Virus record (IMG/VR): IMGVR_UViG_3300030390_001841 | Coordinates: 1-32,295 of that record | From: a virus | Reading direction: 5' to 3' (one strand) | Length of the DNA: 32,295 bases | In this document: piece after piece, positions 715-28,365 of the stretch | Layout: every line of letters starts with the position of its first letter | Numbering within the stretch: the stretch's first letter is position 1 | The notes under the pieces: generated by a model | The model's database searches: none | The model's input: only the letters and a program-made list of their open reading frames with translations | What the model was told of the DNA's origin: nothing | Position numbers and translations under genes: made by a program

Positions 715-996
715 ATGAAAAACAATATTGATTATAAATTTAATGAAAACAAATATATTGAAGAGTTTCAAAAATATATTGATAGTACATATGGAGCTCA
801 TTATTCCACTAATAAATTTCAATCAACTGAAGTAATTATTGACCGAGGACATGGTACAGGATTCTGTATGGGTAATGTCGATAAGTATGCTAATAGATAC
901 GGTAATAAAGGAACACGTGCAGATGCTCGTAAGGATTTAATGAAAATTCTTCATTATGCCCTTATTCAATTGCACATTCATGACGAGGAACTATAA
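715..996 (+). CDS. DUF3310-like small protein, 93 aa
   Basis: The central and C-terminal part (residues about 45-85: GHGTGFCMGNVDKYANRYGNKG, then a D..KDLMKILHYAL helix) resembles the DUF3310 family. That family is common in tailed phages and is often labelled nucleotide kinase-like without biochemical proof. Its hallmark is a Cys-x-Gly-Asn-x-x-Lys-Tyr helix, here CMGNVDKY. The N-terminus is Asn/Lys/Tyr-rich and phage-specific. A GAGGAA Shine-Dalgarno sits just upstream. The stop overlaps the guaC start by one base, so the two are probably co-translated. Function is unknown. Confidence 0.6.
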   Translation: MKNNIDYKFNENKYIEEFQKYIDSTYGAHYSTNKFQSTEVIIDRGHGTGFCMGNVDKYANRYGNKGTRADARKDLMKILHYALIQLHIHDEEL

Positions 997-2111
997 TGCG
1001 TATTGATGATGACGTGAAGCTTGACTATAAAGATGTTCTTATTCGACCTAAAAGAAGTACTCTTGAATCAAGAAAAGAGGTTGATTTAGAACGTAAATTT
1101 ACTTTTTTAAATTATAGTCCAAATTATCCAAATAGTACTGAACCATATAATTATGAGGGCATTCCTATTATGGCAGCTAATATGGATGGCGTTGGTACAT
1201 TTGAAATGGCAGATAAATTATCACTTGAATATGCTTTTACATGTTTAGTAAAAACTTATAGCGTCAATGATCTTGTAGATTATTTTGATAGTGATAATAG
1301 TTTGCGTACTGAATATACTGCAATGAGTATTGGTATTAGTGATCAAGATCATGAAAAATTTAGAACAGTTTACGAACAAGTTGATAACCAATTAAAATAT
1401 GTATGTATTGATGTTGCTAATGGATATACTGTAAGATTTAGTAATTTTATAAAAGAATTTAGAAGTCTTTATCCCAGAATTGTAATCATTGCTGGAAACG
1501 TAGTTACAGCAGATCAGACACAGGAGCTAATTTTAAATGGAGCCGATATTGTTAAAGTGGGCATTGGTCCTGGGAGCGTTTGCACTACTCGGATTCAAAC
1601 GGGTGTTGGCTATCCTCAGTTGTCTTCTGTTATTGAGTGTGCTGATGCCGCGCATGGTCTTGGAGGCCATATCATTGCTGATGGCGGATGTACATGTCCT
1701 GGAGATGTGGCTAAGGCATTCGCTGCAGGAGCCGACTTCGTTATGCTTGGTGGGATGTTAGCTGGACACGACGAAGGCGGCGGAGAAGTAATCGAAAAGT
1801 TTTACGAAACTAATCAGTTAGAGGATTTGCACGGTGAACGTGTAATAGAAAGAAAACAGTTTGTACAGTTCTATGGAATGAGCTCAGATACAGCAAACGA
1901 TAAACACTTTGGAGGTCTTAAAAATTACAGATCTAGTGAAGGTAGAACTGTTTTAATACCATATCGTGGCGCAATTAAAAATACTATTCAAGATACTCTA
2001 GGTGGGCTGCGAAGTACTTGTACATATGCCGGCGCTTCTAATCTTAAGCAATTAAGTAAATGTACAACTTTTATTCGATGTACTCAACAATTTAATTCTG
2101 TTTATTCCTAA
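996..2111 (+). CDS. guaC: GMP reductase (NADPH-dependent), 371 aa
   Basis: The enzyme converts GMP to IMP plus ammonia with NADPH, feeding guanine nucleotides back to the IMP branch point. The N-terminus (MRIDDDVKLDYKDVLIRPKR) is nearly that of E. coli GuaC. The catalytic loop GPGSVCTTRIQTG is intact with the nucleophilic Cys at residue 196, followed by GVGYPQLSSVIECADAAHGL and the phosphate-binding DGGC and GGMLAGH motifs. These segments match GMP reductase rather than IMP dehydrogenase, and there is no CBS domain. At 371 aa it is longer than the roughly 346 of E. coli. The extra residues lie in two surface insertions, near residues 40-54 and 268-285. All key motifs are kept, so it should be active. 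It appears to have been acquired from a bacterium. Confidence 0.93.
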   Translation: MRIDDDVKLDYKDVLIRPKRSTLESRKEVDLERKFTFLNYSPNYPNSTEPYNYEGIPIMAANMDGVGTFEMADKLSLEYAFTCLVKTYSVNDLVDYFDSDNSLRTEYTAMSIGISDQDHEKFRTVYEQVDNQLKYVCIDVANGYTVRFSNFIKEFRSLYPRIVIIAGNVVTADQTQELILNGADIVKVGIGPGSVCTTRIQTGVGYPQLSSVIECADAAHGLGGHIIADGGCTCPGDVAKAFAAGADFVMLGGMLAGHDEGGGEVIEKFYETNQLEDLHGERVIERKQFVQFYGMSSDTANDKHFGGLKNYRSSEGRTVLIPYRGAIKNTIQDTLGGLRSTCTYAGASNLKQLSKCTTFIRCTQQFNSVYS

Positions 2112-2533: not shown

Positions 2534-2772
2534 TAAATTATCAAGCTTCTTCAGAAAAAATGACTTCTGAAGAAATTAAAGAAGCGAATCGACTTATGTG
2601 GGCAGTTAAAGGTATGCTAATACCTTTAGGCTATTCAAGAGATGACGTCAATTCAACTCTAAAAGGCTACTTTAAAAGACTTTGGTGCAATTGTCATGAT
2701 TATCAATTTGAAGGATTTGAAGAAGCTTGGGAACTCGGTAAAGAAGAGAGACTTAAAAAATGGGAGAAGTGA
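2530..2772 (+). CDS. Hypothetical protein, 80 aa
   Basis: This short, mostly helical, charged protein overlaps the upstream HAD gene by 4 bases (ATGA) and ends one base before the aldolase ATG. It carries a Trp/Cys/His cluster near the middle (RLWCNCHDYQFEGFEEAWEL, residues 50-69) whose C-x-C-H pattern could bind metal but is not a standard zinc finger. No family is recognised. The tight coupling suggests expression together with the HAD phosphatase and the aldolase. Confidence 0.6.
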   Translation: MINYQASSEKMTSEEIKEANRLMWAVKGMLIPLGYSRDDVNSTLKGYFKRLWCNCHDYQFEGFEEAWELGKEERLKKWEK

Positions 2773-2773
2773 A

Positions 2774-3598
2774 ATGAAGTTTATTGCAGCGATGGATCAC
2801 AGTGGCGGAAGTACCGGTGGGGTATTAGAACGCTATGGTCAAGAATACACTGAAGATAATAAAATGGATTTAGTACATTCTATGAGATTAAGGATGGTGA
2901 GTTCTCCAGATTTTACGTCAGATAAAATATGGGCAGCTATTTTGTATAAAGACACTATTGATAAAGGTATGAATCCAATTCTAAAAGAAAAAGGAATTAA
3001 ATCATATTTAAAAATTGACAGTGGTCTTGAAGAGGATGGTACTTTAAAAGATTTTAACGATACCGCGATGTGCGCATATGCGTTTTCAAAAGAATGTTCC
3101 GGTACAAAAATGAGAAGTGTTGTACACGACATATATTCTATTGAAAAGGTTTTAGAACAGCAATTTGAGATAGCGCTAAGAATTAATATGAACTTTAATT
3201 TAATGCCAATTATTGAGCCTGAAATTTCAATTAATAATCCTAACAAGACATCTATTGAAAAAGACTTGAGCCGGTACCTTGCAACATATTTAAAAAATTA
3301 TAAAGGACGCTGTATTCTAAAACTTACTATTCCAGATGATCATACTACGTACGACTCATTACACTCATACAATAACGTAGAAAAAATTGTAGGATTAAGT
3401 GGTGGTTATACTACAAAAGAAGCTTGTGCTAAACTTTCAATTTGTAAAGATATGACGGCTAGTTTTAGTCGAGCTCTGAGTGAGGGGTTATATGCTTCTC
3501 AAACCGACCGACAATTTAATAAATCGATATCACATAATATTCATAGGATTTTTGACGCAGGAAAAACTAGATATCCTAAGCCGCCTATTGCAGAATAA
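2774..3598 (+). CDS. Class I fructose-1,6-bisphosphate aldolase, 274 aa
   Basis: Class I aldolases reversibly cleave fructose-1,6-bisphosphate to DHAP and glyceraldehyde-3-phosphate through a lysine Schiff base. The sequence aligns by eye along its length with bacterial class I aldolases of the Staphylococcus type: FIAAMDHSGGSTGGVL (3-18), MRLRMVSSPDFTSDKI (37-52), KMRSVVHDI (112-120), EQQFEIA (128-134), LMPIIEPEISIN (143-154), CILKLTIP with the Schiff-base Lys at 183, and VGLSGGYT (206-213) with the phosphate-binding Gly pair. SFSRALSEGL (230-239) is also typical. The start is ATG 2774, two codons after an AAGTGA junction with the upstream gene; an earlier in-frame extension overlaps that gene and lacks the family's N-terminus. 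It is slightly shorter than the usual 295 or so residues, but no key motif is missing. It is not a transaldolase, the aldolase-fold enzyme usually seen in cyanophages. Confidence 0.9.
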   Translation: MKFIAAMDHSGGSTGGVLERYGQEYTEDNKMDLVHSMRLRMVSSPDFTSDKIWAAILYKDTIDKGMNPILKEKGIKSYLKIDSGLEEDGTLKDFNDTAMCAYAFSKECSGTKMRSVVHDIYSIEKVLEQQFEIALRINMNFNLMPIIEPEISINNPNKTSIEKDLSRYLATYLKNYKGRCILKLTIPDDHTTYDSLHSYNNVEKIVGLSGGYTTKEACAKLSICKDMTASFSRALSEGLYASQTDRQFNKSISHNIHRIFDAGKTRYPKPPIAE

Positions 3599-5197: not shown

Positions 5198-5217
5198 ATC
5201 CGATTATATCCGATTAA
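5198..5217 (+). repeat. Short tandem direct repeat
   Basis: The 10-base unit TATCCGATTA occurs twice back to back, immediately after the stop of the 99-aa gene and just before the terminator. It could be a protein-binding site or replication slippage. The role is unknown. Confidence 0.5.
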
Positions 5218-5220
5218 TAA

Positions 5221-5256
5221 AAATAAGGGCCAGCGAAAGTTTGCCCTTATTTTTTT
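5221..5256 (+). terminator. Strong rho-independent terminator closing the first gene block
   Basis: AAATAAGGGC (5221-5230) pairs perfectly with GCCCTTATTT (5243-5252) around a 12-base loop containing GCGAAAG, and runs into a long T tract. The late promoter begins at the end of the T tract, so it insulates the early block from the late block. Confidence 0.9.
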
Positions 5257-5264
5257 TATAAATA
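5257..5264 (+). promoter_or_regulatory. T4-type late promoter TATAAATA
   Basis: There is a perfect match to the T4 late -10 element recognised by the gp55-type sigma factor. It lies directly after a terminator and 26 bases before the first leader-bearing gene at 5290. It probably drives the late block that follows. Confidence 0.8.
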
Positions 5265-5289: not shown

Positions 5290-6060
5290 ATGCTAACATT
5301 TAAGAGTTATATATCTGAAAGTAAAGCAGCTGATCAATATGAAAAAAACGTTGCTGATTATATGACTAGTTTAGGTATTCCAGCATCTAGGCCAAAGGTC
5401 AGTGCTAAATATGCAGATATTGCTATTGATACTCAATACCGCGGAAAAAAACGAGTATGGTTAGAAGTAAAAATGAATCACACAGATAATCTTGGTAATG
5501 AGAGAGTTTTCTATAATGGCAAAAAGTGGGATGGTGGTAGAGATAAAAAAAGCGGTAAACTTTCACCTTTAAAAACCTACATTGTTAATTTTTTAAATAA
5601 ATCTGATGAGGCTAAATCCTTTATATCAGATCTAGAGAAATTTTCAGGAATCAAAGATTGCAAGGTGCCGACTACAAAGGGTGGATTAAAGGATCCAAAA
5701 GCAGTTCCACTTGATGTAATGAAAGATTTCTTCAAAACACGTAATCGTTATATAATGAATAAAAGTAATGTAGATTTAGGTAAAATTGTAAGAAAACATT
5801 ATTTAGAAGGTAAAGCAGAATCTGCATATTATTTACAAGCTGGCGATGATTTCTATATATTCGATAAAAAACAAAATCCATGTAATGTTCCAAACGACGT
5901 TCCAGTATTTAAAGGAACAGGTGAATTTAAAATGAGAGTTGGTACACGATCTCAATTTTATGAAGTACAACCTGAAGTAAAGGTTAAAAATATGGCAGAT
6001 AGTAAATATTCTGTTAAGCCAGGAACTAGTAAAAAAAATCCTTTCGAATCTATGAAATAA
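5290..6060 (+). CDS. Leader-bearing PD-(D/E)XK-like nuclease, 256 aa
   Basis: The N-terminus MLTFKSYISES matches the pattern of the T4 capsid-targeting sequence (MKTYQEFIAE): M-x-[TS]-[FY]-x-x-[YF]-[IL]-x-E. This suggests a protein loaded into the prohead, with the tag cut after Glu-10 by a gp21-type protease. Behind the leader, residues 36-61 read KVSAKYADIAIDTQYR... RVWLEVKM. Asp-43 and the E59-V-K61 triplet on successive strands fit the PD-(D/E)XK nuclease core. The C-terminal half (FYIFDKKQNP ... FEVQPEVKVK) looks beta-rich. AGGAAA precedes the ATG. The nuclease call is from motif spacing only. If correct, the enzyme could cut host or competitor DNA after ejection, or act in packaging. 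Confidence 0.6.
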   Translation: MLTFKSYISESKAADQYEKNVADYMTSLGIPASRPKVSAKYADIAIDTQYRGKKRVWLEVKMNHTDNLGNERVFYNGKKWDGGRDKKSGKLSPLKTYIVNFLNKSDEAKSFISDLEKFSGIKDCKVPTTKGGLKDPKAVPLDVMKDFFKTRNRYIMNKSNVDLGKIVRKHYLEGKAESAYYLQAGDDFYIFDKKQNPCNVPNDVPVFKGTGEFKMRVGTRSQFYEVQPEVKVKNMADSKYSVKPGTSKKNPFESMK

Positions 6061-6071: not shown

Positions 6072-6845
6072 ATGCTTAATTTTAAATCACATATAAACCA
6101 GCCTCTTAATGAAAGTGCTTTAACAGCTCTTCGTGTTGCAACAAAAGCTCATAAAGGTCAGTTTAGAAAAAGTGGTGGAGAATATATTGCTCATCCAAAA
6201 GAAGTTGCTCGATTCGTAAAACAATTTAAAAAGTCTAATAATCTAACAGCTATGATTCAAGCTGCATATTTACACGATACTCTTGAAGATACTGATACGA
6301 CTTATCAGGATTTAGTTAAACAGTTTGGTGCTCTTGTAGCTGATATGGTTCAAGAATTAACTACTGATAAAGCAGCATCTGATGCAATCGGTAAAGGTGA
6401 ATATATTGCAAACAAAATGGCTAAGATGTCGAGTTGGGCATTGGTTGTAAAGTTAGCAGATAGACTAGCAAACGTTCAAGATATCGATACTCGACCAGCA
6501 GACTTTCAAAAGAAATATGCAGCTCAGACTGTATTAGCTATTAATAGATTAAGAAAAGATCGTTATTTGAGCCAGACTCATAACAAAATTATTTCAGCAA
6601 TTGAAAAGAAAATTAAAGAATACATTCCGAAAAATGTTAAAGAAGATACTACTGAATTACATAAAAAATATCAAAATCACATTGATGCTGAAGAAAAACT
6701 CAGTGATCATAATTATGGTCCTAACAAAGCTAGAGCAACACGGACTGCTAATACATTAAGTAAAGCAATCAATAAACATCTTGGTCCTAATGCAACTATG
6801 CAAGATAAAATTAACCTTAGAACCCGATTACAGAACGAAAAATAG
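6072..6845 (+). CDS. Leader-bearing MESH1/SpoT-type HD hydrolase, 257 aa
   Basis: Residues 1-14 (MLNFKSHINQPLNE) are a CTS-like leader. From residue 15 the protein aligns with the HD hydrolase domain of SpoT and the stand-alone (p)ppGpp hydrolase MESH1: AHKGQFRKSGGEYIAHP with metal ligand His-41, AAYLHDTLEDTDTT with His-68/Asp-69 and the catalytic Glu-72/Asp-73 pair of HDxxED, FGALVADMVQELTTD, and VVKLADRLANVQD with metal ligand Asp-130. All four metal ligands are kept. The family hydrolyses the 3'-pyrophosphate of (p)ppGpp, though some relatives act on NADPH or related nucleotides. No synthetase domain follows. The C-terminal 80 residues are basic, helical and unrelated to SpoT. AGGAAA is 6 bases before the ATG. 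Confidence 0.85.
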   Translation: MLNFKSHINQPLNESALTALRVATKAHKGQFRKSGGEYIAHPKEVARFVKQFKKSNNLTAMIQAAYLHDTLEDTDTTYQDLVKQFGALVADMVQELTTDKAASDAIGKGEYIANKMAKMSSWALVVKLADRLANVQDIDTRPADFQKKYAAQTVLAINRLRKDRYLSQTHNKIISAIEKKIKEYIPKNVKEDTTELHKKYQNHIDAEEKLSDHNYGPNKARATRTANTLSKAINKHLGPNATMQDKINLRTRLQNEK

Positions 6846-6854: not shown

Positions 6855-8081
6855 ATGCTTAGATTTGGAAATTATTTAACAGAACAAAAGAACACTCACA
6901 TGACCCATATTGAGGATCGTGTTCTTTATGGTGGTGTGAATGGAACTCGACAGGCAATATTCGCTTTAAGAGATTTAAGGGATATGTTAGGCGGTAAAAA
7001 AGACGGTAAAGTAAGTGTTAAATGGGATGGAGCTCCTGCCGTTTTTGCCGGTATTGATCCAAATGATGGAAAGTTTTTTGTAGCTAAAAAGGGTATTTTT
7101 AATAAAAACCCAATGGTGTATAAAACTGATGTTGAGATTGATGCTGATACTAAAGGTGATCTAAATGCTAAATTAAAAGAAGCTTTAAAGTATTTACCCA
7201 ACCTTGGAATTAAGGGCGTAATTCAAGGAGATTTTTTGTTTTCTAAATCTGACATTTATAATCAAACAATCAAGGGGCAAAAATACGTAATGTTCCATCC
7301 AAATACTATAGCATATGCCGTTCCTGCCGGCACTACAGCCGCAGCAGCAGTCAAAAGAGCTAAAATGGGCATTGTGTGGCATACTACATATACAGGCGAG
7401 TCTTTTGAGACGATGCGAGCTTCTTACGGAGTAGATGTTTCAAAATTGAGAAAAAGTCCCGATGTATGGTCACAAGATGCTATGCTAAGAGATTTGACAA
7501 GAGTTACTATGTCAGCTAAAGAAACCGAAGATGTAAATGAAAAATTATCTGAAATAGGATTTTTATTTAATCAAATTGGTGCATCTACATTAAAAACTCT
7601 TGAAGATAATAGAGATTTAGCTCAAACAATTGAGACATTTAATAATACATTTGTTCGTAAAGGTGAACAAGTAAAAGATACAGCTAAACATGTAAATGCA
7701 TTAATCAAATGGGTCAATGCCCGCTATCAAAAAGAAATTGATAAGCGTAAGACCGAAAAGGGTAAAAACGCCCAAATAATAAAACGCGATGAATTTTTAA
7801 AATTCTTTTCACCAAATAATAAACAAAATCTTAAAAAGATATTTGATCTTCAAAAGTTAATAATTGTTGTAAAATTAAAACTTATAAATATACTTAATAA
7901 GCTAAAGAGCATTGACACTTTCGTTAAGACGCCTAATGGATTTAAGGTTACTGGCGAAGAAGGATATGTTGCTATAGACAAATTAGGTGGTGATGCGGTA
8001 AAGATTGTTGACAGATTAGAATTCTCGTACAACAACTTTTCGCCAGATATTTTAAAAGGATGGGATAAACCAGGAAGATGA
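6855..8081 (+). CDS. Leader-bearing ligase-like nucleotidyltransferase, 408 aa
   Basis: A CTS-like leader (MLRFGNYLTEQK) precedes a covalent nucleotidyltransferase core. Motif I is KWDGA with the candidate adenylated Lys-56 and Asp-58/Gly-59. It is followed by a strand (AVFAGIDP), a motif III-like QGDFLFS (124-130), a middle region IVWHTTYTG, and near the C-terminus EEGYVAI (368-374; motif IV-like EG) and DAVKIVDR (380-387; motif V-like). The order and spacing resemble ATP-dependent RNA/DNA ligases and related phage proteins of unknown substrate. A long helical insert (about residues 230-330) separates the halves, so this is not a minimal ligase. There is no OB-fold that I can recognise. RNA or DNA ligation is the leading idea. 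Confidence 0.7.
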   Translation: MLRFGNYLTEQKNTHMTHIEDRVLYGGVNGTRQAIFALRDLRDMLGGKKDGKVSVKWDGAPAVFAGIDPNDGKFFVAKKGIFNKNPMVYKTDVEIDADTKGDLNAKLKEALKYLPNLGIKGVIQGDFLFSKSDIYNQTIKGQKYVMFHPNTIAYAVPAGTTAAAAVKRAKMGIVWHTTYTGESFETMRASYGVDVSKLRKSPDVWSQDAMLRDLTRVTMSAKETEDVNEKLSEIGFLFNQIGASTLKTLEDNRDLAQTIETFNNTFVRKGEQVKDTAKHVNALIKWVNARYQKEIDKRKTEKGKNAQIIKRDEFLKFFSPNNKQNLKKIFDLQKLIIVVKLKLINILNKLKSIDTFVKTPNGFKVTGEEGYVAIDKLGGDAVKIVDRLEFSYNNFSPDILKGWDKPGR

Positions 8082-9870: not shown

Positions 9871-11574
9871 ATGATGATTAATTCTTTTAAGCAGTATATT
9901 GTTGAAGAGGCAAAGACACTTTATTTTACATTTGGTAGAATGAATCCTCCAACTATTGGTCATGAAAAACTGCTAGAGGTGCTTTCTTCTAAGTCAGGTA
10001 ATAATCCATATCGAATTTATCTTTCTCAAACAAATGATAAAAAGAAAAACCCATTACTATATAATGATAAAGTTAAATATGCTCGGAAAATGATGCCTAA
10101 GCATGCTCGTTATATTATGTTAAACAAAGATGTTAAAACAGTATTTGATGCAGCTAATGCTATTTACAATGAAGGATTTGTAAATGTAGTAATGGTAGTT
10201 GGATCAGATAGAATCACTGAGTTCAAATCTTTATTAACAAAGTATAATGGTAAAACAGGACAACGGTATGGTTTCTATAACTTTAGAACAATTGATGTAA
10301 TATCAGCCGGTGAAAGAGATCCTGACTCAGAAGGCGTCGATGGTATGTCTGCATCTAAAATGAGAGCTGCAGCAGGCGATAATGATTTTAATCAATTCAC
10401 AAAAGGCCTTCCAAAGAATTTTAGTAATAAAGATTCAAAGGACTTATTTAATGGCGTAAGATCTGGCATGGGTTTGAAAGAAGAAACTGAATTCTATAAG
10501 CATGTGCAATTAGAATCTGTAGGTGATATTCGAGAAAAATATATTCAAGGCGAGATTTATAATCTTGGTGAACGTTTACGCATTAAAGATACCGATGAAT
10601 TAGCAGAAGTCACATTTCGTGGGCCTAATTATTTAATTCTTGAGAAAGAAGATGGATCTATTGTAAGAAAGTGGATCGAGGCAGTTGAATCACTTGATGA
10701 AGCAGTTAAAAAGGTTGCTACGCCAAAGTGGAAAAAATCTGGTCCTAATGGAGAAAAAGAAATTACATTCTCTACTGGACGCCGATTCCAAATTGAGAAA
10801 CAATATGATCAAGATGATCGCCATAAAGGTGAATGGAAAGTTATGGAATGGAATACCCGCTCACGTGATTGGGATTGGCATGAGACATATAGCCCACAAT
10901 GGCATGCGAAAGCAAAAGTAATTGAACTAGGTAAATATGATTCTAAAGGCAAAAAAGTTACTGAATCTATCGAGTCGGTTAACGAAGATCCTACTCAGTT
11001 AGCACACGATGCTGTTACTTCAGCAGAAATGCTGAAAGGTCTTGGTATTTTAGGGACAGGAGCTGTAATAAAATACGGCATCACAGACCCTCTTACTAAA
11101 GTAATACATAAAAAAATTACCAACACCGTAGATAAATTTAAAGCAGACCGTAAAAGAAAAAGACCAGTAATTACTAAACCAATTCCTCGTGACATGAAGA
11201 CAGAAGATAGTAAGCTAGATAATTATAATAAGACTGGATGGGGAACTAAAGAAAGCACTAAAAAATGGGTAGATGCTACTCCGGGTCAAGTTATGCCAGA
11301 CGTTAAACCAACTCCAAAGTCTAAAACTAAAACAAGAAAACATCCAGGTAGTGATGTATCAGACGCCGGTGGTATGGGTGAGGGTGCTATGAAACGGTCA
11401 GGTCCAGATATGGACGGTTACGCACCAGGAGGTAATAAAGCCACTATTAGTTATGATAAAATTGACAAGGGTTTAAAGACATACAGAAAAAAACCAGATG
11501 ATTTAGTTACTAAAATTAAAATTGCTCGAAAGGGTGCCAAGCTAATTTTAGGAGATAAACGAGATGGAAAATAG
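9871..11574 (+). CDS. Leader-bearing HxGH nucleotidylyltransferase fused to internal-head region, 567 aa
   Basis: MINSFKQYIVEEA forms a CTS-like leader. Residues 16-170 are a Rossmann-type nucleotidylyltransferase: FTFGRMNPPTIGHEKLL carries the TIGH form of the (H/T)xGH motif (28-31), VVMVVGSDR is the central strand, and GMSASKMR (158-165) matches the ISSTxxR-like second nucleotide motif. This layout is typical of NMN adenylyltransferase (NadR/NadM), CoaD and cytidylyltransferases; NAD synthesis is the most likely but not certain role. From about residue 200 the chain becomes a mosaic with ESV/ESL-type spacers (LESVGDI, VESLDEA, IESVNED), an SH3-like WKVMEWNTRSRDWDW stretch, a short hydrophobic helix, and a Lys/Pro/Gly-rich tail. 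ATG 9874 is an alternative start. It overlaps the next gene by 11 bases. Confidence 0.72.
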   Translation: MMINSFKQYIVEEAKTLYFTFGRMNPPTIGHEKLLEVLSSKSGNNPYRIYLSQTNDKKKNPLLYNDKVKYARKMMPKHARYIMLNKDVKTVFDAANAIYNEGFVNVVMVVGSDRITEFKSLLTKYNGKTGQRYGFYNFRTIDVISAGERDPDSEGVDGMSASKMRAAAGDNDFNQFTKGLPKNFSNKDSKDLFNGVRSGMGLKEETEFYKHVQLESVGDIREKYIQGEIYNLGERLRIKDTDELAEVTFRGPNYLILEKEDGSIVRKWIEAVESLDEAVKKVATPKWKKSGPNGEKEITFSTGRRFQIEKQYDQDDRHKGEWKVMEWNTRSRDWDWHETYSPQWHAKAKVIELGKYDSKGKKVTESIESVNEDPTQLAHDAVTSAEMLKGLGILGTGAVIKYGITDPLTKVIHKKITNTVDKFKADRKRKRPVITKPIPRDMKTEDSKLDNYNKTGWGTKESTKKWVDATPGQVMPDVKPTPKSKTKTRKHPGSDVSDAGGMGEGAMKRSGPDMDGYAPGGNKATISYDKIDKGLKTYRKKPDDLVTKIKIARKGAKLILGDKRDGK

Positions 11575-14304: not shown

Positions 14305-15024
14305 ATGAAATCATTTAGAAAATTCATAACTGAAGAAAAACATGGCAAACTTAATGTTAAGCCTGAGCAAAAAGTTATGAATTACCTTAAAAAATATAAT
14401 ATTCCTGATGATACTGGTGTGGCTAATTATGGAATAGATTTTGGTCCAAATGGTGGCAAGGTACAGTCGACTGATAGTTATGTTAAAATTCCTATAGCTA
14501 GAAAAACTCAACGGGAGGCAATTCCAGAAAAAAATCATCCTTCAGTTGATAAATTATTAGCTGATATTGAGAAGGGTGCTTTTAAACATCCTCGTTTAAT
14601 TAGCTATAATGTTGGAGATACTTATCGAGAAGGTAAAACTGCTCTTGTTATATATTTTGCTAATAGAGTGGCAGTTGGAAAACCAGATGCACTTTATCAC
14701 TGGACAAAGACTGCCAATGTTGATAGTATATTAAAAAATGGATTAAAACCTTCTTCAGGAGATTGGGTAATTAGTGGTTCAAAGGTTGCATATGTTGCAA
14801 CGTTCCTTACTGAAAAACCAAAGCGTTTAGCTAGAGTTCGAGGATTTACGCATTTTAAAGAGCCGACATGGACATTATTAAAAGTAGATCCTGGTAATTC
14901 TAAACTTTACGTTGATGAACATAGATTTGATCCTGATCCAATTAACTGGATGGTGTATGATGTTATTTCAAAAGATAATATAGAAGTAGTAAAAGATATT
15001 AAAGCAAATAGGCAAATAAAATGA
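14305..15024 (+). CDS. Leader-bearing ADP-ribosyltransferase/KptA-like protein, 239 aa
   Basis: MKSFRKFITEEKHG matches the capsid-targeting pattern closely. The C-terminal 110 residues contain LYHWTKTANVDSILKNGLKP (about residues 131-150). This is the H-x-T strand, helix and GLKP turn found in RNA 2'-phosphotransferase (KptA/Tpt1), DarT and other ART-fold enzymes that use NAD+. Downstream, KVAYVATFLTE and a late VYDVISKDNIEVV fit the remaining strands. A catalytic Glu cannot be assigned with confidence. T4 carries ADP-ribosyltransferase Alt in the capsid by the same kind of leader, so a packaged ART is plausible. An alternative is tRNA-repair 2'-phosphotransferase. The first 120 residues are unassigned. 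The gene is sandwiched between two duplicated His-rich genes. Confidence 0.6.
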   Translation: MKSFRKFITEEKHGKLNVKPEQKVMNYLKKYNIPDDTGVANYGIDFGPNGGKVQSTDSYVKIPIARKTQREAIPEKNHPSVDKLLADIEKGAFKHPRLISYNVGDTYREGKTALVIYFANRVAVGKPDALYHWTKTANVDSILKNGLKPSSGDWVISGSKVAYVATFLTEKPKRLARVRGFTHFKEPTWTLLKVDPGNSKLYVDEHRFDPDPINWMVYDVISKDNIEVVKDIKANRQIK

Positions 15025-15985: not shown

Positions 15986-16273
15986 ATGGATACTTTTAAA
16001 CAGTACATATCAGAACGTGGCAACGATTCTAAAGGGCACTATATCCCAACCGAAAAAGGTGCGGGGATGACTCAAAAGGGTGTAGACGCAGTTAACAGAA
16101 AGACCGGCGGCAATTTGAAAACTGCAGTGACCGGTAAAGTAAAAGCCGGAAGTAAAGATGCAAAAAGACGTAAATCATTCTGCGCTCGTATGAGCGGAAT
16201 GAAAGGCCCTATGAAAGACGAAAAGGGTAGACCAACAAGAAAAGCGATGTCGTTAAAGCGGTGGAAGTGTTAA
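15986..16273 (+). CDS. Leader-bearing basic Cys-containing protein, 95 aa
   Basis: MDTFKQYISERG is a CTS-like leader. The body carries GAGMTQKGVDAVNRKTGG, LKTAVTGKVKAGSKDAKRRK, SFCARMSGMKGPM and a final LKRWKC. This is a small basic domain seen in many T4-like and other phage genomes, usually as a protein of unknown function (I believe DUF6321). Two conserved Cys, one in SFCARM and one at the C-terminus, may bind metal or form a disulfide. Its high Lys/Arg content suits DNA binding inside the head. A GGAGG ribosome site precedes the ATG. Confidence 0.65.
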   Translation: MDTFKQYISERGNDSKGHYIPTEKGAGMTQKGVDAVNRKTGGNLKTAVTGKVKAGSKDAKRRKSFCARMSGMKGPMKDEKGRPTRKAMSLKRWKC

Positions 16274-20185: not shown

Positions 20186-20776
20186 ATGGGATTTATTAAA
20201 AAGGCTGGTGATTTAGTATATACCTTTAGGTTTTTGGCCTTACTGGTGACACCGTTCGAAAAAACAAAGGCCTTTGAGTTAGGTCTTATTGACAAAGATG
20301 GTAAGCGTACTCGGACTGATGGTGATTTGGATTACCCAGAACAAAGAGATGCGTATACACCATTTATTCGTTTAGTATTTAATATTAAAAGATTAATGGC
20401 CAAAGCGCCTGGAGGTCAATCTGTTGTTGCTCGATATGCTGCAGCGCTGTATCTCATTAAAGAAAATTTAGATCTGACTGATAAGTCAATAAAACAAATT
20501 ACTGAAAAATGTGGACTTGATCCACTTGATTTTTTGTCAGAACAAAGTGGTTGGTTTTTATTAGAAAGCGGTGCATTAGCTCCAGGATCATATAGAGTTA
20601 AAAATAATAAAATAGTAAATAGCACATTTGAAGAGGTTGTAAGACCAAGAGATTGGATTCGAGTTGGAAACGATTGTTATCCTGTAGGTGAAATGTTTGG
20701 ATTAAATGTATATGAAGCTACGCATGTAAATACTAGACAAAAAGTATATATCACTATAGGGGAAATAATGTCGTGA
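20186..20776 (+). CDS. Conserved-looking phage protein of unknown function, 196 aa
   Basis: The N-terminal half is helical (KAGDLVYTFRFLALLVTPFE onward). The C-terminal half (from about residue 130) is beta-rich, with GWFLLESGALAPGSYRVKNN, DWIRVGNDCYPVGEMFGLNV and an ending that reads like a small beta-barrel domain. I recall similar proteins in T4-like marine phages next to the 122-aa protein, with no known role. The stop overlaps the next start (TGATG). There is no leader, so it is probably an assembly or virion component outside the cargo set. Confidence 0.6.
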   Translation: MGFIKKAGDLVYTFRFLALLVTPFEKTKAFELGLIDKDGKRTRTDGDLDYPEQRDAYTPFIRLVFNIKRLMAKAPGGQSVVARYAAALYLIKENLDLTDKSIKQITEKCGLDPLDFLSEQSGWFLLESGALAPGSYRVKNNKIVNSTFEEVVRPRDWIRVGNDCYPVGEMFGLNVYEATHVNTRQKVYITIGEIMS

Positions 20777-21576
20777 TGCGGCTGAAAAAATATATCAAAG
20801 AAATGGCGTCAGTGGCAGTTTCAGAGTTAGATGCTGAATTCTTAGCAAATGCTCAAAAATTAACATCGTTTAATTTAAAAGGATCTGATTTCACTTCTTT
20901 AAAATATAAAAAAGAAATTCAGCACTTGTTTCATATGAAATATTTTCCGACATTTAATATGGATAATACTATAAAGGGTCAACCAACTGTAGGTAAAGTT
21001 AATTCAGTTTTAAAACAACTGAAAAAGGCTGACGCAACTGCATTTGGAAAATTACATAAGTATGATATTAAAGGTGTTGGTCCTGGTGAAGCAATGTTAT
21101 TCTTTATTTTAGATGACGCTCATTTAGGTGGTGGTTCTTCTGCCGGCGTTGATTTAGTAGTTGATGGTAAAAATTATGAAATCAAAGCTGGCAATTTTAC
21201 TAAAGATGGATATATGGTTAACTATAAATTAGGTGCCACTATGGATATGACAAAAATAGTCGGTCCGGCCCTAGAACTTAAGAATATGGCTGATCCCAAA
21301 GGAGCCCTAGGTAGAGAAAAATCTGGCGTGAATGGAAAACAAATGACGGCTATTAAAAGAATACCAGCGCTTGCTGCTAGATGGAAAAAAGAAGTTGAAG
21401 ATCCTTATATTGATGCAGCTCATGCATATCTTTCCGCAAATCCAATTATCTTTATGGTCAACACATCGCCTAAGAATTTAATTGGAATGTGTAAAGCTAT
21501 TAAAGTACCTAAGAAGTCTGATATTGGATTAGATATGGTAACTCAAGGAATAATCAAACCAAAGGTAAAGGTATGA
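20776..21576 (+). CDS. Leader-bearing PD-(D/E)XK-like nuclease, 266 aa
   Basis: I chose ATG 20776 over the in-frame GTG 20773 because it overlaps the upstream stop. The N-terminus MRLKKYIKEMASVAVSE is a weaker CTS-like leader. The core shows GVGPGEAMLFFILDDA with Glu-105, then SAGVDLVVDGKNYEIKAG with Asp-126 and E135-I-K137. This is the classic E...D-x8-E-x-K layout of PD-(D/E)XK nucleases, and clearer than that of the protein at 5290. The remaining 120 residues (AALARWKKEVEDPYIDAA and after) are helical. It resembles restriction-type or resolvase-type nuclease cores, but no exact family is assigned. The target may be host DNA, competitor phage DNA or branched DNA. Confidence 0.65.
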   Translation: MRLKKYIKEMASVAVSELDAEFLANAQKLTSFNLKGSDFTSLKYKKEIQHLFHMKYFPTFNMDNTIKGQPTVGKVNSVLKQLKKADATAFGKLHKYDIKGVGPGEAMLFFILDDAHLGGGSSAGVDLVVDGKNYEIKAGNFTKDGYMVNYKLGATMDMTKIVGPALELKNMADPKGALGREKSGVNGKQMTAIKRIPALAARWKKEVEDPYIDAAHAYLSANPIIFMVNTSPKNLIGMCKAIKVPKKSDIGLDMVTQGIIKPKVKV

Positions 21577-21944
21577 AAAACAAATTAGCACAGATAAGAT
21601 CTTTAAATACAGCTTTTCAAAATACTCGTAAAGATAAAGATGAAGACCGGAAAAAGAGAAAAGAAATTAATCCGACATATGATGGAAGACATCATCATGG
21701 CACCTTTAAAAAAGTAGAAGACGTGCAGGAAGATGCACCAGCTAATTCAATCAGTACTGGCGGACCAGTTGCTGGCCACGATAATATTCCGCTTGGTCAT
21801 AAAATGATGCGTAGAGTAAAAGAAGTTCCAGTAACTGATCGTAGATATAAACTCAATAGTTCAAAAGCTAATACTTTAAAGAAAAAATATAGAGGTAAAG
21901 AACTATTGTTAACTACATTTAAGAAACACGCATACGGCAAGTAA
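21573..21944 (+). CDS. Small basic virion-type protein, 123 aa
   Basis: Residues 1-45 are a basic helix (LAQIRSLNTAFQNTRKDKDE). A spacer follows, EDAPANSISTGGPVAGHDNI, a Gly/Ala/Pro-rich motif I recall from virion proteins of T4-like marine phages. The C-terminus, VPVTDRRYKLNSSKANTLKK and beyond, is basic. It overlaps the upstream nuclease by 4 bases (ATGA) and ends directly before the spanin gene. No catalytic feature is seen; it is likely structural. Confidence 0.6.
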   Translation: MKNKLAQIRSLNTAFQNTRKDKDEDRKKRKEINPTYDGRHHHGTFKKVEDVQEDAPANSISTGGPVAGHDNIPLGHKMMRRVKEVPVTDRRYKLNSSKANTLKKKYRGKELLLTTFKKHAYGK

Positions 21945-22454
21945 ATGCTTAAAATTTATATGATGATATTTGTAATCGGTTTAATAGGCTCTATAGGTTA
22001 TGGAGCCTATGCTACATGGAACCATATGCAAGCGAAAGTAGAAATATTAACAGCAAACAATGCTAAGCTTGAGGGTGCTGTACAGACTCAAAAAGATACT
22101 ATTGGCGCACTTGAGTCTGATATTCAAGCAGTTAACAATGAATTAAAAAGCGTTAATAAACAAATGACCCGTACACGCACGCGGAATAAAATACTTGCAA
22201 AGAAATTAGAAAGTCTAGATCTTGGGTTGCTTGGCGCTGAGAAGCCAGATGTAGTTGAAAGATTAATTAATAGGGGAACTGCTAATGCATTAAGATGTTT
22301 TGAATTAATGTCTGGCGCTCCATTAAGTGAAAAAGAAAGAGAAGCAGAAAATGGAAAAGCGTTTAATCGTGAATGCCCTTGGTTGTTTGATACTCTTGTT
22401 GACCCTGAACGGTTGCAGCAGCTTGAAAAGGCTTCCCGAAACAGTAGAGATTAA
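21945..22454 (+). CDS. Inner-membrane spanin (i-spanin, Rz-like), 169 aa
   Basis: One N-terminal signal-anchor helix (MLKIYMMIFVIGLIGSIGYG) is followed by a periplasmic coiled coil (about residues 30-95, KVEILTANNAKLEGAVQTQK onward) and a tail rich in LMSGAPLSEKERE and a Cys-Pro-Trp. This is the topology of Rz-type spanins, which with the outer-membrane partner fuse the two membranes in the last step of lysis. The partner gene begins inside this one in another frame (22351), the classic overlapped arrangement. Family detection is by topology and gene arrangement, not by sequence identity. Confidence 0.8.
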   Translation: MLKIYMMIFVIGLIGSIGYGAYATWNHMQAKVEILTANNAKLEGAVQTQKDTIGALESDIQAVNNELKSVNKQMTRTRTRNKILAKKLESLDLGLLGAEKPDVVERLINRGTANALRCFELMSGAPLSEKEREAENGKAFNRECPWLFDTLVDPERLQQLEKASRNSRD

Positions 22455-22755
22455 AACTAAACCAGTCGAAAGACCTGAACTTGTTTTACCGGAAGCAGAT
22501 CAAATTGATCAACGTGATATAACATGGGTTGCAATAACACCAAATAATCATGAAGAAGTTTTTGATGATCTAAAAAAGACAGGAGATGATCTAGTTTTAT
22601 TTGGATTAACTGGAGATGATTATGGAAAATTGGGTTTAAATATATCTGATATTCGAATGTATATAGGTCAACAACAAGCAATCATTCAGGCATATAAAAA
22701 TTATTATATTGAAAGCGAAAAAACCATGGATAAAGCAGTTACTATAGAGGAATAA
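22351..22755 (+). CDS. Outer-membrane spanin lipoprotein (o-spanin, Rz1-like), 134 aa
   Basis: The start ATG 22351 lies inside the i-spanin gene in the +1 frame; an in-frame GTG at 22327 is an alternative. The N-terminus MEKRLIVNALGCLILLLTLN is a lipoprotein signal with lipobox TLNGC followed by SS, so lipidation is expected at the Cys near residue 21. The mature protein is hydrophilic, with PERPELVLPEADQ, and rather long for an Rz1 (usually 40-100 aa). Together with the i-spanin it should form the periplasm-spanning complex. It ends 3 bases before the next gene. Confidence 0.78.
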   Translation: MEKRLIVNALGCLILLLTLNGCSSLKRLPETVEIKTKPVERPELVLPEADQIDQRDITWVAITPNNHEEVFDDLKKTGDDLVLFGLTGDDYGKLGLNISDIRMYIGQQQAIIQAYKNYYIESEKTMDKAVTIEE

Positions 22756-22758
22756 CGA

Positions 22759-23085
22759 ATGGAATACTTATGGATTTATACTAGTATCGCTGGAGCCCTT
22801 CTTGGCGCAGCATGTTTAGCTTATATAAGAGATACCAGAATAGGTTTATGGGGATATTCAAAATTTGATCAAGCATGTGACTATTTGCGTGATAGATATG
22901 GATGGACGTGGTTTGATCAAGATCCAGAAGCATGGAAAAAAGTAAATCCAAAAATTGCTGCTAAGATTCAAGAATTAGAAAATAGAATAAATGAGATGTC
23001 AAGAATTTCAGGTGATAATAGAAATATTAGCGGTAGAAAGAATTCCACAGTGTCGATACAACCTAAAGACTATTCTGACGCATAG
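22759..23085 (+). CDS. Membrane-anchored protein of unknown function, 108 aa
   Basis: An N-terminal hydrophobic helix (LWIYTSIAGALLGAACLAYI) is followed by a soluble region rich in Trp and acidic residues (WGYSKFDQACDYLRDRYGWT) and a coiled-coil segment (KIAAKIQELENRINEMSRIS). I recall this type beside spanins in marine T4-like phages, and its position suggests a role near lysis, for example as a holin-like or antiholin-like membrane protein. That role is inference; a single helix at the N-terminus is not diagnostic. It is the last gene before the regulatory gap at 23086-23324. Confidence 0.6.
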   Translation: MEYLWIYTSIAGALLGAACLAYIRDTRIGLWGYSKFDQACDYLRDRYGWTWFDQDPEAWKKVNPKIAAKIQELENRINEMSRISGDNRNISGRKNSTVSIQPKDYSDA

Positions 23086-23102
23086 CATACTATCCCCCCT
23101 GT

Positions 23103-23119
23103 TAAGAGATACTCTCTTA
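23103..23119 (+). other. AT-rich hairpin in the gap upstream of nrdB
   Basis: TAAGAGA, loop TAC, TCTCTTA: a perfect 7-bp stem with a tight loop, 17 bases past the preceding stop. It lacks a T-run, so it is only a possible weak terminator or RNA-stabilising element. Confidence 0.35.
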
Positions 23120-23199
23120 TTATATCAAGATATGGTATACTTGTACATATGTATATACTAAATATATTAATTTTTTTAAAAAGATATGCGCATTTTTCA

Positions 23200-23229
23200 T
23201 TGTACAAAATTTTAATACTGATATATAAT
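23200..23229 (+). promoter_or_regulatory. Promoter upstream of nrdB, TTGTAC-N18-TATAAT
   Basis: TTGTAC (23200-23205), within the palindrome TTGTACAA, lies 18 bp from a perfect TATAAT (23224-23229). A second TTGTAC (23141-23146) is 18 bp from TATTAA (23165-23170). Both sit in the 239-base gap before nrdB. The gap is otherwise AT-rich with no ORF. Confidence 0.7.
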
Positions 23230-23324
23230 AGTACCAATTAAAAAAGAAACTCACTCTCAATATAAACATTCGTAGCAAATAATATGTATTTGCTAGGGAA
23301 CTAAAGTACGCTTAGGAAAATAAT

Positions 23325-24296
23325 ATGTTATTTCAAGAACAAATCTCAAGAAAACCAGACTTATATCCATGGACAAAAGACTTTATTGAAGCTATATGGA
23401 AAGGATTTTGGACACCAGAAGAATTTAATTTTCGTTCGGATTATTCACAATTTAAAACAGATTTGAGTCCAGAAGAACGTGAGATTGTTGTTAAAACTAT
23501 GTCAGCGATCGGTCAAATTGAAATTGCAGTTAAATCATTTTGGGCTGATGTAGGTAATCACTTACCTCATCCATCGATTAAAGACTTAGGTTATGCTATG
23601 GCCAATTCAGAAGTCATTCATAATATGGCATATGAGAAAATTCTTGATGTTTTGCATCTGACTCATGTATTTGAAGAAAATCTAAATGAAAAAGTAATTA
23701 GAGGCCGTGTAGATTATTTACGCAAATATAATAATAAAGTCTATGCTGATGATAAAAAGCAATATATCTACTCAATTATGCTGTTTACGTTGTTTGTAGA
23801 GAATGTAAGTTTGTTTAGTCAGTTCTATATCATTATGCATATGAATCGTAATAAAGCAGTAATGAAAGATTGTGCGCAACAAGTACAATATACTCGAAAT
23901 GAAGAAATGCTACATGCTCAAGTTGGCATTAAGCTAATTAATACATTGCGTGAAGAGTATCCTGATTTGTTTGATGATGAATTAGAAGCCCGTGTAAGAG
24001 AAGAATGCATCGATGCTCTTAAAGCAGAAAGCAAAGTCATTGATTGGATTATGGGTGGATACCAAACTGATGGATTGTCAGCATCAATTCTCAAATCTTT
24101 TATTGCTAAAAGAATGGCTGATTCTTTAGATCAGATTGGATTTGACAATTCAGAGATTATATATAATCAAGACGAGATTGATCAAACATTTTGGTTTGAC
24201 GAAGAACTGCTAGGTGCTAATATGACAGATTTCTTTCAAAAGCGCCCGGTCGAATATGCAAAGGGACAAGGTATTACTGCTGATGATTTATTTTAA
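23325..24296 (+). CDS. nrdB: Class I ribonucleotide reductase beta subunit, 323 aa
   Basis: It provides the diiron-tyrosyl radical for ribonucleotide reduction to dNTPs and is paired with nrdA downstream. The ferritin-like ligand set is visible: Glu-66 (GQIEIAV) in the position that is Asp-84 in E. coli, Glu-96 and His-99 (SEVIHNMAY), Glu-159 (FVENVSLF), and Glu-194 and His-197 (RNEEMLHAQ). Tyr-103, seven residues after Glu-96, is in the radical position, so a tyrosyl-radical enzyme is expected. The C-terminal YAKGQGITADDLF tail fits the alpha-subunit docking peptide. TTAGGAAAATA precedes the start. Expression is probably from the promoters at 23141-23229. Confidence 0.92.
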   Translation: MLFQEQISRKPDLYPWTKDFIEAIWKGFWTPEEFNFRSDYSQFKTDLSPEEREIVVKTMSAIGQIEIAVKSFWADVGNHLPHPSIKDLGYAMANSEVIHNMAYEKILDVLHLTHVFEENLNEKVIRGRVDYLRKYNNKVYADDKKQYIYSIMLFTLFVENVSLFSQFYIIMHMNRNKAVMKDCAQQVQYTRNEEMLHAQVGIKLINTLREEYPDLFDDELEARVREECIDALKAESKVIDWIMGGYQTDGLSASILKSFIAKRMADSLDQIGFDNSEIIYNQDEIDQTFWFDEELLGANMTDFFQKRPVEYAKGQGITADDLF

Positions 24297-24307
24297 AGGA
24301 TTATATA

Positions 24308-25951
24308 ATGGGATTTGAATGGGCAAACGATGATTCACGGCTTTTCTTAAGCCGTGGATACATCGATGGAAATATGACAGTAGAAGAGCGTGTTCGCATG
24401 ATCGCTCAGACTGCAGAGACTATCCTCGATAAAGACGGCTTTGCTGATAAATTTTATGATTATATGAGTAGAGGATTTTATTCTCTCTCATCACCAGTTT
24501 GGTCTAATTTTGGTACAAAGAAAGGACTTCCTATTTCGTGCAACGGCGTATTCGTTAATGATAATATGGAATCGATTCTTATGAAGACCGCTGAGATTGG
24601 TATGCAAACTAAAATGGGTGCCGGTACTTCTGCATATTTTGGAGCTCTGCGCCAACGCGGAGAAGAAATTAAATCAGGCGGAACAGCCGACGGTCCAGTT
24701 CATTTTATGAATCTTGCTGAAACAACAGTTGATGTAGTTGCCCAAGGTAATGTCCGTAGAGGATCGTGTGCAGCATATCTTCCTATTGAGTCACCAGATA
24801 TTATGGAGTTTCTAGAATGCCGTGAAGAAGGTTCTTCAATTATTAATCTTTCACTTGGTGTTTGCATTTCAGACGAATGGATGGAATCTATGATTGCTGG
24901 TGATACAGAAAAGCGTACCGTGTGGGCACGGGTGCTTCGTAAGAGAAGAGAATCTGGTTATCCATATTTGTTTTTTAGCGATACTGTAAATAACAATAAG
25001 CCTCAAGTGTTAAAAGATCAAGATATTTCTATTTGGGCATCAAATCTTTGTTCTGAAATATGTTTGCCATCAAGCGAAGATTGGTCGTTTGTTTGTAATT
25101 TAGCGTCAATGAATTGTGCCACATTTGATGAATGGCAAGATACAGACGCAGTAGAAACTATGACTTGGTTCCTTGATGCGGTAATGGAAGAGTATATTGA
25201 AAAGACTGCTGATATTCCGTTTATGAAATCAGCACATGATTTCGCAGCGCATTGGAGAGCGTTAGGTCTTGGTCAATTAGGATGGCATACATATTTACAA
25301 TCTAAGAATATAGCATTTGAATCATTTGAAGCACATATGCTCACTATGAAAATTAGTAAGTTTATTGATGATAGGTCTCTTGAAGCATCAAAGGAGTTGG
25401 CTATTGAATATGGTGAACCTGCCGGTATGCTTGGTGTTGGTGAGCGTAATTTAACAAGAACTGCAATTGCCCCAACGACTTCTTCATCTTTTATTCTAGG
25501 TCAGGTATCACCGTCTATCGAACCGCTTGCTTCTAATTATTTCACTAAAGATTTAGCCAAGGGAAAGTTTACATACCGCAATCCACATCTTAAAGCAGTA
25601 TTGCATGATCACGGTAAAAACAATGAAGAGGTATGGGTGGATATTCTTAAGCATGGGGGATCAGTTCAACATTTAGATTTTCTTACTCAAAATGAAAAAG
25701 ATGTATTTAAAACTTTCAGTGAGATTACTCCGCTTTCTATCGTACAGCAAGCCGGCGGAAGACAGAAATATATCGATCAATCTCAATCATTAAATATTTT
25801 AATTCATCCAGATGTTTCGGCAAAGGATGTTAATGCGCTAATTATTGAAGGATGGAAGTTAGGCGTTAAGACATTTTACTATCAAAGGTCATCAAATCCA
25901 GCGCAAGAACTAGTTCGTGATATTATGAACTGTGCTAGTTGCGAAGCATAA
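24308..25951 (+). CDS. nrdA: Class I ribonucleotide reductase alpha subunit, short form, 547 aa
   Basis: This is the catalytic subunit. Active-site residues can all be read: Cys-78 (LPISCNG) and Cys-270 (LASMNC) as the redox pair, NLCSEICLP with Asn-246, the thiyl-radical Cys-248 and Glu-250, the double Tyr in TFYYQRSSN, and the C-terminal redox pair CASCEA. It lacks the N-terminal ATP-cone, so allosteric overall-activity control by dATP is probably absent, as is common in phage enzymes. At 547 aa it is much shorter than the E. coli protein (about 760). It starts 11 bases after nrdB. Confidence 0.92.
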   Translation: MGFEWANDDSRLFLSRGYIDGNMTVEERVRMIAQTAETILDKDGFADKFYDYMSRGFYSLSSPVWSNFGTKKGLPISCNGVFVNDNMESILMKTAEIGMQTKMGAGTSAYFGALRQRGEEIKSGGTADGPVHFMNLAETTVDVVAQGNVRRGSCAAYLPIESPDIMEFLECREEGSSIINLSLGVCISDEWMESMIAGDTEKRTVWARVLRKRRESGYPYLFFSDTVNNNKPQVLKDQDISIWASNLCSEICLPSSEDWSFVCNLASMNCATFDEWQDTDAVETMTWFLDAVMEEYIEKTADIPFMKSAHDFAAHWRALGLGQLGWHTYLQSKNIAFESFEAHMLTMKISKFIDDRSLEASKELAIEYGEPAGMLGVGERNLTRTAIAPTTSSSFILGQVSPSIEPLASNYFTKDLAKGKFTYRNPHLKAVLHDHGKNNEEVWVDILKHGGSVQHLDFLTQNEKDVFKTFSEITPLSIVQQAGGRQKYIDQSQSLNILIHPDVSAKDVNALIIEGWKLGVKTFYYQRSSNPAQELVRDIMNCASCEA

Positions 25952-25961
25952 GGAAGACTAT

Positions 25962-26099
25962 ATGCAACATTACTATATTGAATGTAACTATTGTGATGCA
26001 GAATCGCAAGTATCAACAGAAGATAAAGAGCCAGAATATTGCCCATGCTGTGGACACGAAGTAAATGCTCAATTACTAGATGCAGAGGATGACGATTAA
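25962..26099 (+). CDS. Zinc-ribbon micro-protein, 45 aa
   Basis: This 45-codon ORF starts 10 bases after nrdA with an AAGGAAG ribosome site. It has two CxxC pairs, IECNYCDAE and YCPCCGHE, the zinc-ribbon pattern, and an acidic tail (DAEDDD). Similar tiny ribbon proteins are common in phage early regions, and a role with the reductase is only suggested by position. The function is unknown. Confidence 0.6.
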   Translation: MQHYYIECNYCDAESQVSTEDKEPEYCPCCGHEVNAQLLDAEDDD

Positions 26100-26103
26100 T
26101 TTA

Positions 26104-26111
26104 TATAAATA
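26104..26111 (+). promoter_or_regulatory. T4-type late promoter TATAAATA
   Basis: A perfect match lies 27 bases before the TTG start at 26138, the same spacing as at 5257 and 19781. It would give late expression of the SegE-like and thermonuclease genes. Confidence 0.7.
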
Positions 26112-26137
26112 GTATTTTGTAATTAAGGAATACTATA

Positions 26138-26554
26138 TTGTGGTTATTTGAAAATAAAGAGTTTGATCCAGCTGATTCTCGTATTAATGACTTAGCTGGA
26201 TTTGTTTACTGTATAACTGACTTAACAAATAATAAAAAATATATTGGTAAAAAAACTTTATGGTCTATAAGAAGACTTAAACCTTTAAAGGGTAAAACTA
26301 GACGAAGAGTAAAAAAAGCTCAATCTGATTGGATGAGTTACTATGGCTCAAATGAAGAAGTTAAGTTGCTTGTAGAAAATGATGGAGAAAATAGATTTAA
26401 AAGAGAAATACTAAAGCTATGTAAGACAAAGGGTCTTATGAGCTATTATGAGGCAAAAGAACAATTTGATCGTGAAGTCCTTTTTAATGATGAATATTAC
26501 AATGAATTTATTGGATGCAAAATTCATTCAAAACATGTAAAAGGAAAAGAATAA
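26138..26554 (+). CDS. SegE-like GIY-YIG domain protein, 138 aa, TTG start
   Basis: GFVYCITDLTNNKKYIGKK holds a GIY-YIG-type core (VYCIT ... YIGKK). It is followed by GKTRRRVKKAQSDWMSYYGS, FKREILKLCKTKG, YYEAKEQFDREVLF and YYNEFIGCKIHSKHVKG. The same order occurs in the SegE-type proteins I know from T4-like cyanophages. The start TTG is preferred: AAGGA sits 8 bases upstream, and MWLF fits the usual N-terminus of homologues. The family is labelled a homing endonuclease-like nuclease, but it is widespread as an ordinary phage gene. It overlaps the next gene by one base (TAATG). Confidence 0.78.
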   Translation: MWLFENKEFDPADSRINDLAGFVYCITDLTNNKKYIGKKTLWSIRRLKPLKGKTRRRVKKAQSDWMSYYGSNEEVKLLVENDGENRFKREILKLCKTKGLMSYYEAKEQFDREVLFNDEYYNEFIGCKIHSKHVKGKE

Positions 26555-27006: not shown

Positions 27007-27010
27007 AGGG

Positions 27011-27039
27011 TTTACAATTGATTAATAGTATGTTATAAT
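27011..27039 (+). promoter_or_regulatory. Sigma-70-type promoter for rnh
   Basis: TTTACA (27011-27016) and TATAAT (27034-27039) are 17 bp apart, with TG one base before the -10 (extended). This is close to consensus and lies 26 bases before the RNase H start. Confidence 0.8.
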
Positions 27040-27064
27040 ACTTACATAATGAAAGGAATCCCAG

Positions 27065-27916: not shown

Positions 27917-27918
27917 TA

Positions 27919-28326: not shown

Positions 28327-28365
28327 ATATATAATGATTGGAAAATATACTTATAATTAGATTTA

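Follow-up and report, generated by a model that had tools for sequence, protein, structure and literature searches.

A RelA/SpoT-MESH1-type HD hydrolase with a putative capsid-targeting leader and flanking prohead-protease motifs in a phage fragment related to marine T4-like phages

We analysed a 32-kb fragment from IMG/VR (32,295 nucleotides, referred to here as the window), in which the gene for a small HD hydrolase starts 11 nt after ORF 5290-6060, the first gene of its transcription unit. The features of this unit, and the other genes of the window whose products begin with a similar leader, are as follows.

5215-5258, plus strand: terminator-like hairpin with U tract (dG -18.4 kcal/mol, z -6.05), ending the upstream unit
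5257-5264, plus strand: T4-type late promoter TATAAATA, 33 nt upstream of the ATG of ORF 5290
5290-6060, plus strand: leader gene (MLTFKSYISE), co-directional with the HD gene
6072-6845, plus strand: HD-hydrolase gene, ATG start, 257 aa (from the ORF call and family profiles)
6072-6113, plus strand: capsid-targeting-like leader, residues 1-14, MLNFKSHINQPLNE; residues 1-10 of low model confidence
6105-6113, plus strand: predicted gp21 site L12-N13-E14/S15 (slash, predicted cut; L/I-x-E motif from PMC9026906)
6114-6620, plus strand: predicted mature hydrolase, residues 15-183, an RSH/MESH1-type HD domain (profiles, residues and model)
6612-6620, plus strand: second L/I-x-E motif, I181-K182-E183, at the C-terminal edge of the HD core
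6651-6836, plus strand: C-terminal helical extension, residues 194-255
6855-8081, plus strand: leader gene (MLRFGNYLTE), DUF6267 (E 3e-101)
9871-11574, plus strand: leader gene (MMINSFKQYIVE), cytidylyltransferase family
14305-15024, plus strand: leader gene (MKSFRKFITE)
15986-16273, plus strand: leader gene (MDTFKQYISE), DUF6321
20773-21576, plus strand: leader gene (MMRLKKYIKE)

The product of ORF 6072-6845 exceeded the Pfam cut-offs of both HD_4 (E 9.4e-16) and HD (E 4.5e-6), and matched phrog_990 (E 4e-30) and, over residues 19-154, the NCBIfam model spoT_relA (TIGR00691; E 5.9e-27), the latter with a score under the full-length cut-off of that model because the hydrolase domain alone is present. 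Human MESH1 (3nr1; E 6e-16) was the top match in a PDB sequence search, with Rel enzymes close behind. Pfam returned HD families only and spoT_relA was matched in its hydrolase part only; no synthetase, TGS or ACT domain was found in the ORF. The catalytic and metal residues H41, H68, D69, E72, D73 and D130 are all present at the positions given by the first-pass annotation, R32, K127 and N134 are kept too, and these residues are invariant in 19 relatives with identities down to 33-34%. An AlphaFold2 model (mean pLDDT 83, mostly >90 in the HD core and <50 in residues 1-10) matched human MESH1 3nr1 (TM 0.85 by target length, rmsd 2.1) and the small alarmone hydrolase (SAH) of P. aeruginosa (TM 0.84) in a fold search, in which MESH1 structures with NADPH and PAPS were also among the top matches to the model. 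Profiles, fold and residues thus confirm that the ORF encodes a RelA/SpoT-MESH1-type HD hydrolase of the small form; the first-pass annotation had proposed an enzyme of this kind, without a synthetase domain, and a comparison with MESH1. The protein shares the HD fold and the metal and catalytic residues with MESH1, bacterial SAH and the hydrolase domain of Rel/SpoT, and it lacks a synthetase domain, as do MESH1 and the bacterial small alarmone hydrolases. Unlike all of these, it possesses an N-terminal capsid-type leader and a predicted protease site, and its gene lies in a phage late unit and appears as a polyprotein module in relatives. The C-terminal extension is confined to the closest relatives, which were the only matches in a search made with it, and other orthologs end at about residue 185-191 without it.

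In T4, the first ten residues of the internal protein IPIII are enough for packaging; positions 4 and 7 matter for targeting, positions 8 and 10 for processing, and the prohead protease gp21 cleaves after L/I-x-E (PMC9026906). Most orthologs of the HD protein, found on approximately 70 contigs, start with M-x-x-F-K-x-[YFH]-[ITM]-x-E or near variants, mostly keeping the T4-type pattern of F4, Y/F/H7, I/T/M8 and usually E10. The IPIII rule fits 19 of 35 distinct first-10-residue strings without a shift, and several more after a one-residue offset or a correction of the start. Between the leader and the first HD helix lie a spacer, whose length varies from a few to ~80 residues, and then [LMF]-N-E, with the N-E invariant in 23 orthologs; L-D-E and L-R-E occupy the start of the HD domain in more distant orthologs, and a 57%-identical relative reads MRSFKTFVDDLRE up to the cut at the equivalent place. 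I181 and E183 of the second motif are likewise invariant in 23 orthologs, and the L/I-x-E motifs at E14 and E183, which bracket the folded HD core, are the only two in the whole protein of the window. Where close relatives have HMNE, the window protein has HINQ, with Q at the first E; the relevant site is therefore L12-N13-E14. Two details count against packaging. With HINQ in place of x-E at its first site, the window protein would depend for targeting on F4, which is kept, and on H7, a residue that lacks the hydrophobic aromatic character of the Y or F of most orthologs; and the F-N-E or M-N-E of some orthologs departs from the L/I-x-E consensus.

The T4 internal proteins provide a control for this pattern. 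IPI, taken from the T4 genome, starts MKTFKEFTSTTTPVSTITE/ATLTSE, and a cut at the slash leaves 76 residues, which is the published size of mature IPI. The HD ortholog in L045, which starts MKRFKEFTSHDLNE/SAL, has almost the same leader as IPI. With IPI, IPII, IPIII and Alt of T4 the HD protein has in common a leader with F4 and Y/F/H7 and the L/I-x-E motif; the T4 proteins are processed by gp21 and injected, and late expression would be expected for the HD protein as for them. The cargoes differ, being a restriction inhibitor, basic proteins and an ADP-ribosyltransferase in T4 and an alarmone-type hydrolase here.

The protease itself was found in four of the longer ortholog-encoding contigs (G001, G002, G010 and G012; Peptidase_S77, E 4e-43 to 3e-34), the window being a 32-kb fragment. 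The major capsid protein propeptides of two of them show SLTE/AAPTN (G002) and LLQE/APTN (G001), similar to FLTE/AEIGG of T4 gp23, from which the specificity of a gp21-type protease appears to be conserved in these phages. Between the portal and gp21 genes, G001 also encodes a 559-aa leader protein (163779-165458, minus strand; MKTFKNLIAE) with repeated LDEA motifs, at the position of gp67 and gp68 in T4.

The late promoter TATAAATA at 5257-5264 directly follows the strong terminator hairpin. On the plus strand, 5 of the 7 TATAAATA sites lie 20-60 nt upstream of ORF starts (P 6e-6), and the placement of these sites is therefore that of promoters; the significance is in placement only, as their number in the window shows no over-representation (8 found, 5.4 expected). 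Further TATAAATA late promoters were noted at 16610, 19781, 26104 and 28645 (plus strand), 33-46 nt before ORF starts. L063 and L064 each have one TATAAATA, 37 nt directly upstream of the start of the HD gene. A sigma-70 promoter scan and a generic terminator scan performed no better than on shuffled sequences. The promoter needed for expression at the time of head assembly is thus present, as far as the DNA can tell.

The HD gene is not alone in having such a leader: six more ORFs of the window carry one, against 0.9 expected with shuffled N-termini. A loose leader regex applied genome-wide was not discriminating alone, with 11 matches in G001 and 9 in G002 against ~6 expected by shuffling, and clear leaders are a minority of these matches. 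No useful match to the cytidylyltransferase, DUF6267 or ORF 5290 proteins turned up among PDB sequences. The DUF6267 protein (6855-8081, plus strand) contains V-K-W-D-G-A-P-A, which recalls the K-x-D-G motif of nucleotidyltransferases (ligases). ORFs at 13748, 15043 and 19502 (plus strand) have a second type of N-terminus, similar to MFANDDNEKNIQTYAALLQDIREG and with I-x-E, which is possibly another leader class. Elsewhere in the window, an IMPDH/GMP-reductase-like gene (996-2111, plus strand; E 4e-68) places purine metabolism beside an alarmone hydrolase, and 2696-3598 (plus strand) has a weak match to class-I fructose-bisphosphate aldolase.

The DUF6267 and cytidylyltransferase genes and their order match those of T4-like marine Kyanoviridae (C48C1, Melnitz, HTVC008M and cyanophages), with 67% identity of the DUF6267 protein to that of C48C1, and also those of Stenotrophomonas phage DLP_6. 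Positions 20773-32295 of the window had no near DNA match in the phage collection. A scan of genome contigs yielded only two ortholog contigs, in a Rhodobacteraceae bin and a Bacteroidetes MAG, and both look like phage contigs and not like pointers to a host.

For the Kyanoviridae cyanophage S-CREM2, a virion proteome of 52 proteins has been published (PMC10665884). Among its 219 CDS, the strict IPIII rule (aromatic at 4 and 7; I, L, V, M, T or F at 8; E at 10) selects gp6 (SAM hydrolase), gp14 (kinase), gp136 and gp154 (cytidylyltransferase). All four were detected in the virion by mass spectrometry (P 0.003), few positives as these are; it should be noted that F was admitted at position 8 only once gp136 (FFSE) had been seen. 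A looser rule placed five of its six matches among the reported virion proteins (P 0.003), and the first regex, fixed before S-CREM2 was looked at, four of six (P 0.029; P 0.004 with non-structural proteins only). A leader profile was also tried and placed six reported virion proteins in its top 10 (P 0.013), together with unrelated proteins, and the position-anchored IPIII rule was therefore relied on. Leader-like sequences of T4 type were seen at or near the start of gp6, gp12, gp13, gp14, gp15, gp136 and gp154 of S-CREM2 (OR473000; L100-L102), a set with virion-detected SAM hydrolase, Cas9-annotated nuclease, kinase and cytidylyltransferase. Thus gp6, gp14 and gp154 share the leader pattern of the HD protein and were detected in virions (PMC10665884); S-CREM2, unlike the phages with the HD gene, has no annotated HD alarmone hydrolase. 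In the sections consulted, the authors do not call the leader a capsid targeting sequence, and they consider that the enzymes detected in virions might be co-purified (PMC10665884). Virions of S-SM1 also hold a cytidylyltransferase (PMC3037559). Beyond one T4 review, we found no description of cyanophage capsid targeting sequences in the open-access literature searched.

In two distant relatives the HD domain is part of a longer ORF. In the 1197 aa encoded by L168:808-4398 it is accompanied by a cytidylyltransferase (phrog_3041), DUF5824 and other parts, and L170:2227-3951 encodes 575 aa with the HD domain inside. L/I-x-E motifs stand at both edges of the HD domain (734 and 903 in L168; 264 and 433 in L170), with none inside it. 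Both ORFs contain other modules of the leader family and many L/I-x-E motifs, and by their sequences they look like polyproteins for cutting in the prohead. Through the fusion in L168, the hydrolase is linked to a family with members found in virions. In a different phage type, an HD hydrolase of ~48% identity lies within a 1786-aa protein (L174:112-5469).

Other phages encode the HD domain without a leader, which would agree with an ordinary auxiliary enzyme that is not packaged, the likeness of the N-terminus to a capsid leader being incidental or serving another purpose. Such homologs are found in many phages: those of Vibrio phage pv27 and Burkholderia phage BcepSaruman (phrog_990; 44-50% identity over the aligned HD region) start at the first HD helix and, unlike the window protein, have no leader. 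The HD domains of L175-L178, of two large-phage records (L184 and L185) and of Ochrobactrum phage ORM_20 (L186) show no clear leader. We consider a non-packaged enzyme improbable: the orthologs retain the leader, with differing lengths, ahead of a gp21 motif that stays constant, leader genes are clustered and the unit has a late promoter, and a related phage has leader proteins in its virions. The capsid leader suggested by the first-pass annotation has become much stronger, supported by the capsid targeting pattern of the orthologs with a gp21 site at the domain edge, by gp21 in orthologous genomes together with the T4-type late promoter, and by virion-detected leader proteins in a related phage and the fusion of the hydrolase to a virion-detected family.

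The family, catalytic residues, leader, two flanking motifs and late promoter of the window, and gp21 in orthologous genomes, are read directly from the DNA; from them we infer packaging, ejection in an active form, (p)ppGpp as substrate and a benefit to the phage. The best explanation, which we hold to be probable, is an alarmone hydrolase that is expressed late, packaged in the head, trimmed by gp21 and injected. The HD gene would be transcribed late from the T4-type promoter, and the N-terminal capsid targeting sequence would bring the protein into the prohead core, where gp21 would cut after L-N-E14, and probably after I-K-E183 too, to free the compact HD domain. Once ejected alongside the DNA into a new host cell, the hydrolase would most likely strip the 3'-pyrophosphate from (p)ppGpp, and in a starved marine host this would open transcription, translation and GTP synthesis ahead of all phage gene expression.

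Sequence and fold make (p)ppGpp the likeliest substrate. Enzymes of this fold are also reported to act on (p)ppApp, NADPH, CoA and PAPS; homology therefore does not fix the substrate, and a role against toxic small alarmone synthetases (toxSAS) or in cofactor metabolism is possible. In the former case, to which we give a rather low probability, the packaged enzyme would counter CapRel/FaRel-type defences, either taking pyrophosphate off the 3'-CCA ends of tRNA or breaking down (p)ppApp, comparable to packaged T4 IPI against a restriction enzyme. The evidence for delivery is identical to that for the injected (p)ppGpp hydrolase, and IPI is an injected anti-restriction factor (PMC3012670, PMC9026906). 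toxSAS enzymes are reported to be antiphage effectors, acting via tRNA pyrophosphorylation or (pp)pApp synthesis, and accompanied by small alarmone hydrolases as self-resistance. Against this, the best sequence and fold matches are the ppGpp-hydrolysing MESH1 and Rel enzymes, with the (p)ppApp hydrolase 7smg far lower in both rankings. A packaged 3'-phosphatase acting on NADPH, CoA or PAPS, linked through the packaged nucleotidyltransferase-like protein to NAD or cofactor metabolism, seems very improbable to us. It would agree with the NADPH and PAPS structures of MESH1 among the top fold matches, with MESH1 being reported as a CoA phosphatase, and with the HD and cytidylyltransferase domains sharing one ORF in L168; by sequence, however, Rel (p)ppGpp hydrolases score as high as MESH1, and the R-K-S-G motif of the HD protein is as in Rel.

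Among the precedents cited in the first-pass annotation is MazG, a marine T4-like phage enzyme of a different family for which lowering of ppGpp was once proposed; it is a weak one, because purified cyanophage MazG neither binds nor hydrolyses (p)ppGpp (PMC6850273). We found no description of a packaged alarmone hydrolase in the open-access literature searched, and, if the proposal is true, this would be, to our knowledge, the first one carried in a phage head. It would also revive, with a different enzyme, the idea of marine T4-like phages lowering ppGpp, which failed for MazG (PMC6850273). More widely, and only tentatively, marine T4-like (Kyanoviridae-related) phages may load a variable set of enzymes into their heads by T4-type capsid targeting, in some lineages as polyproteins cut by the prohead protease, with one cargo being an alarmone hydrolase that ends the stringent response before the first phage transcript. 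The heads of T4-like marine phages carry many unexplained proteins, and a ten-residue leader with L/I-x-E would be a simple rule for predicting injected enzymes in these phages. Such a cargo could allow a phage to reopen a starved marine cell ahead of its own protein synthesis.
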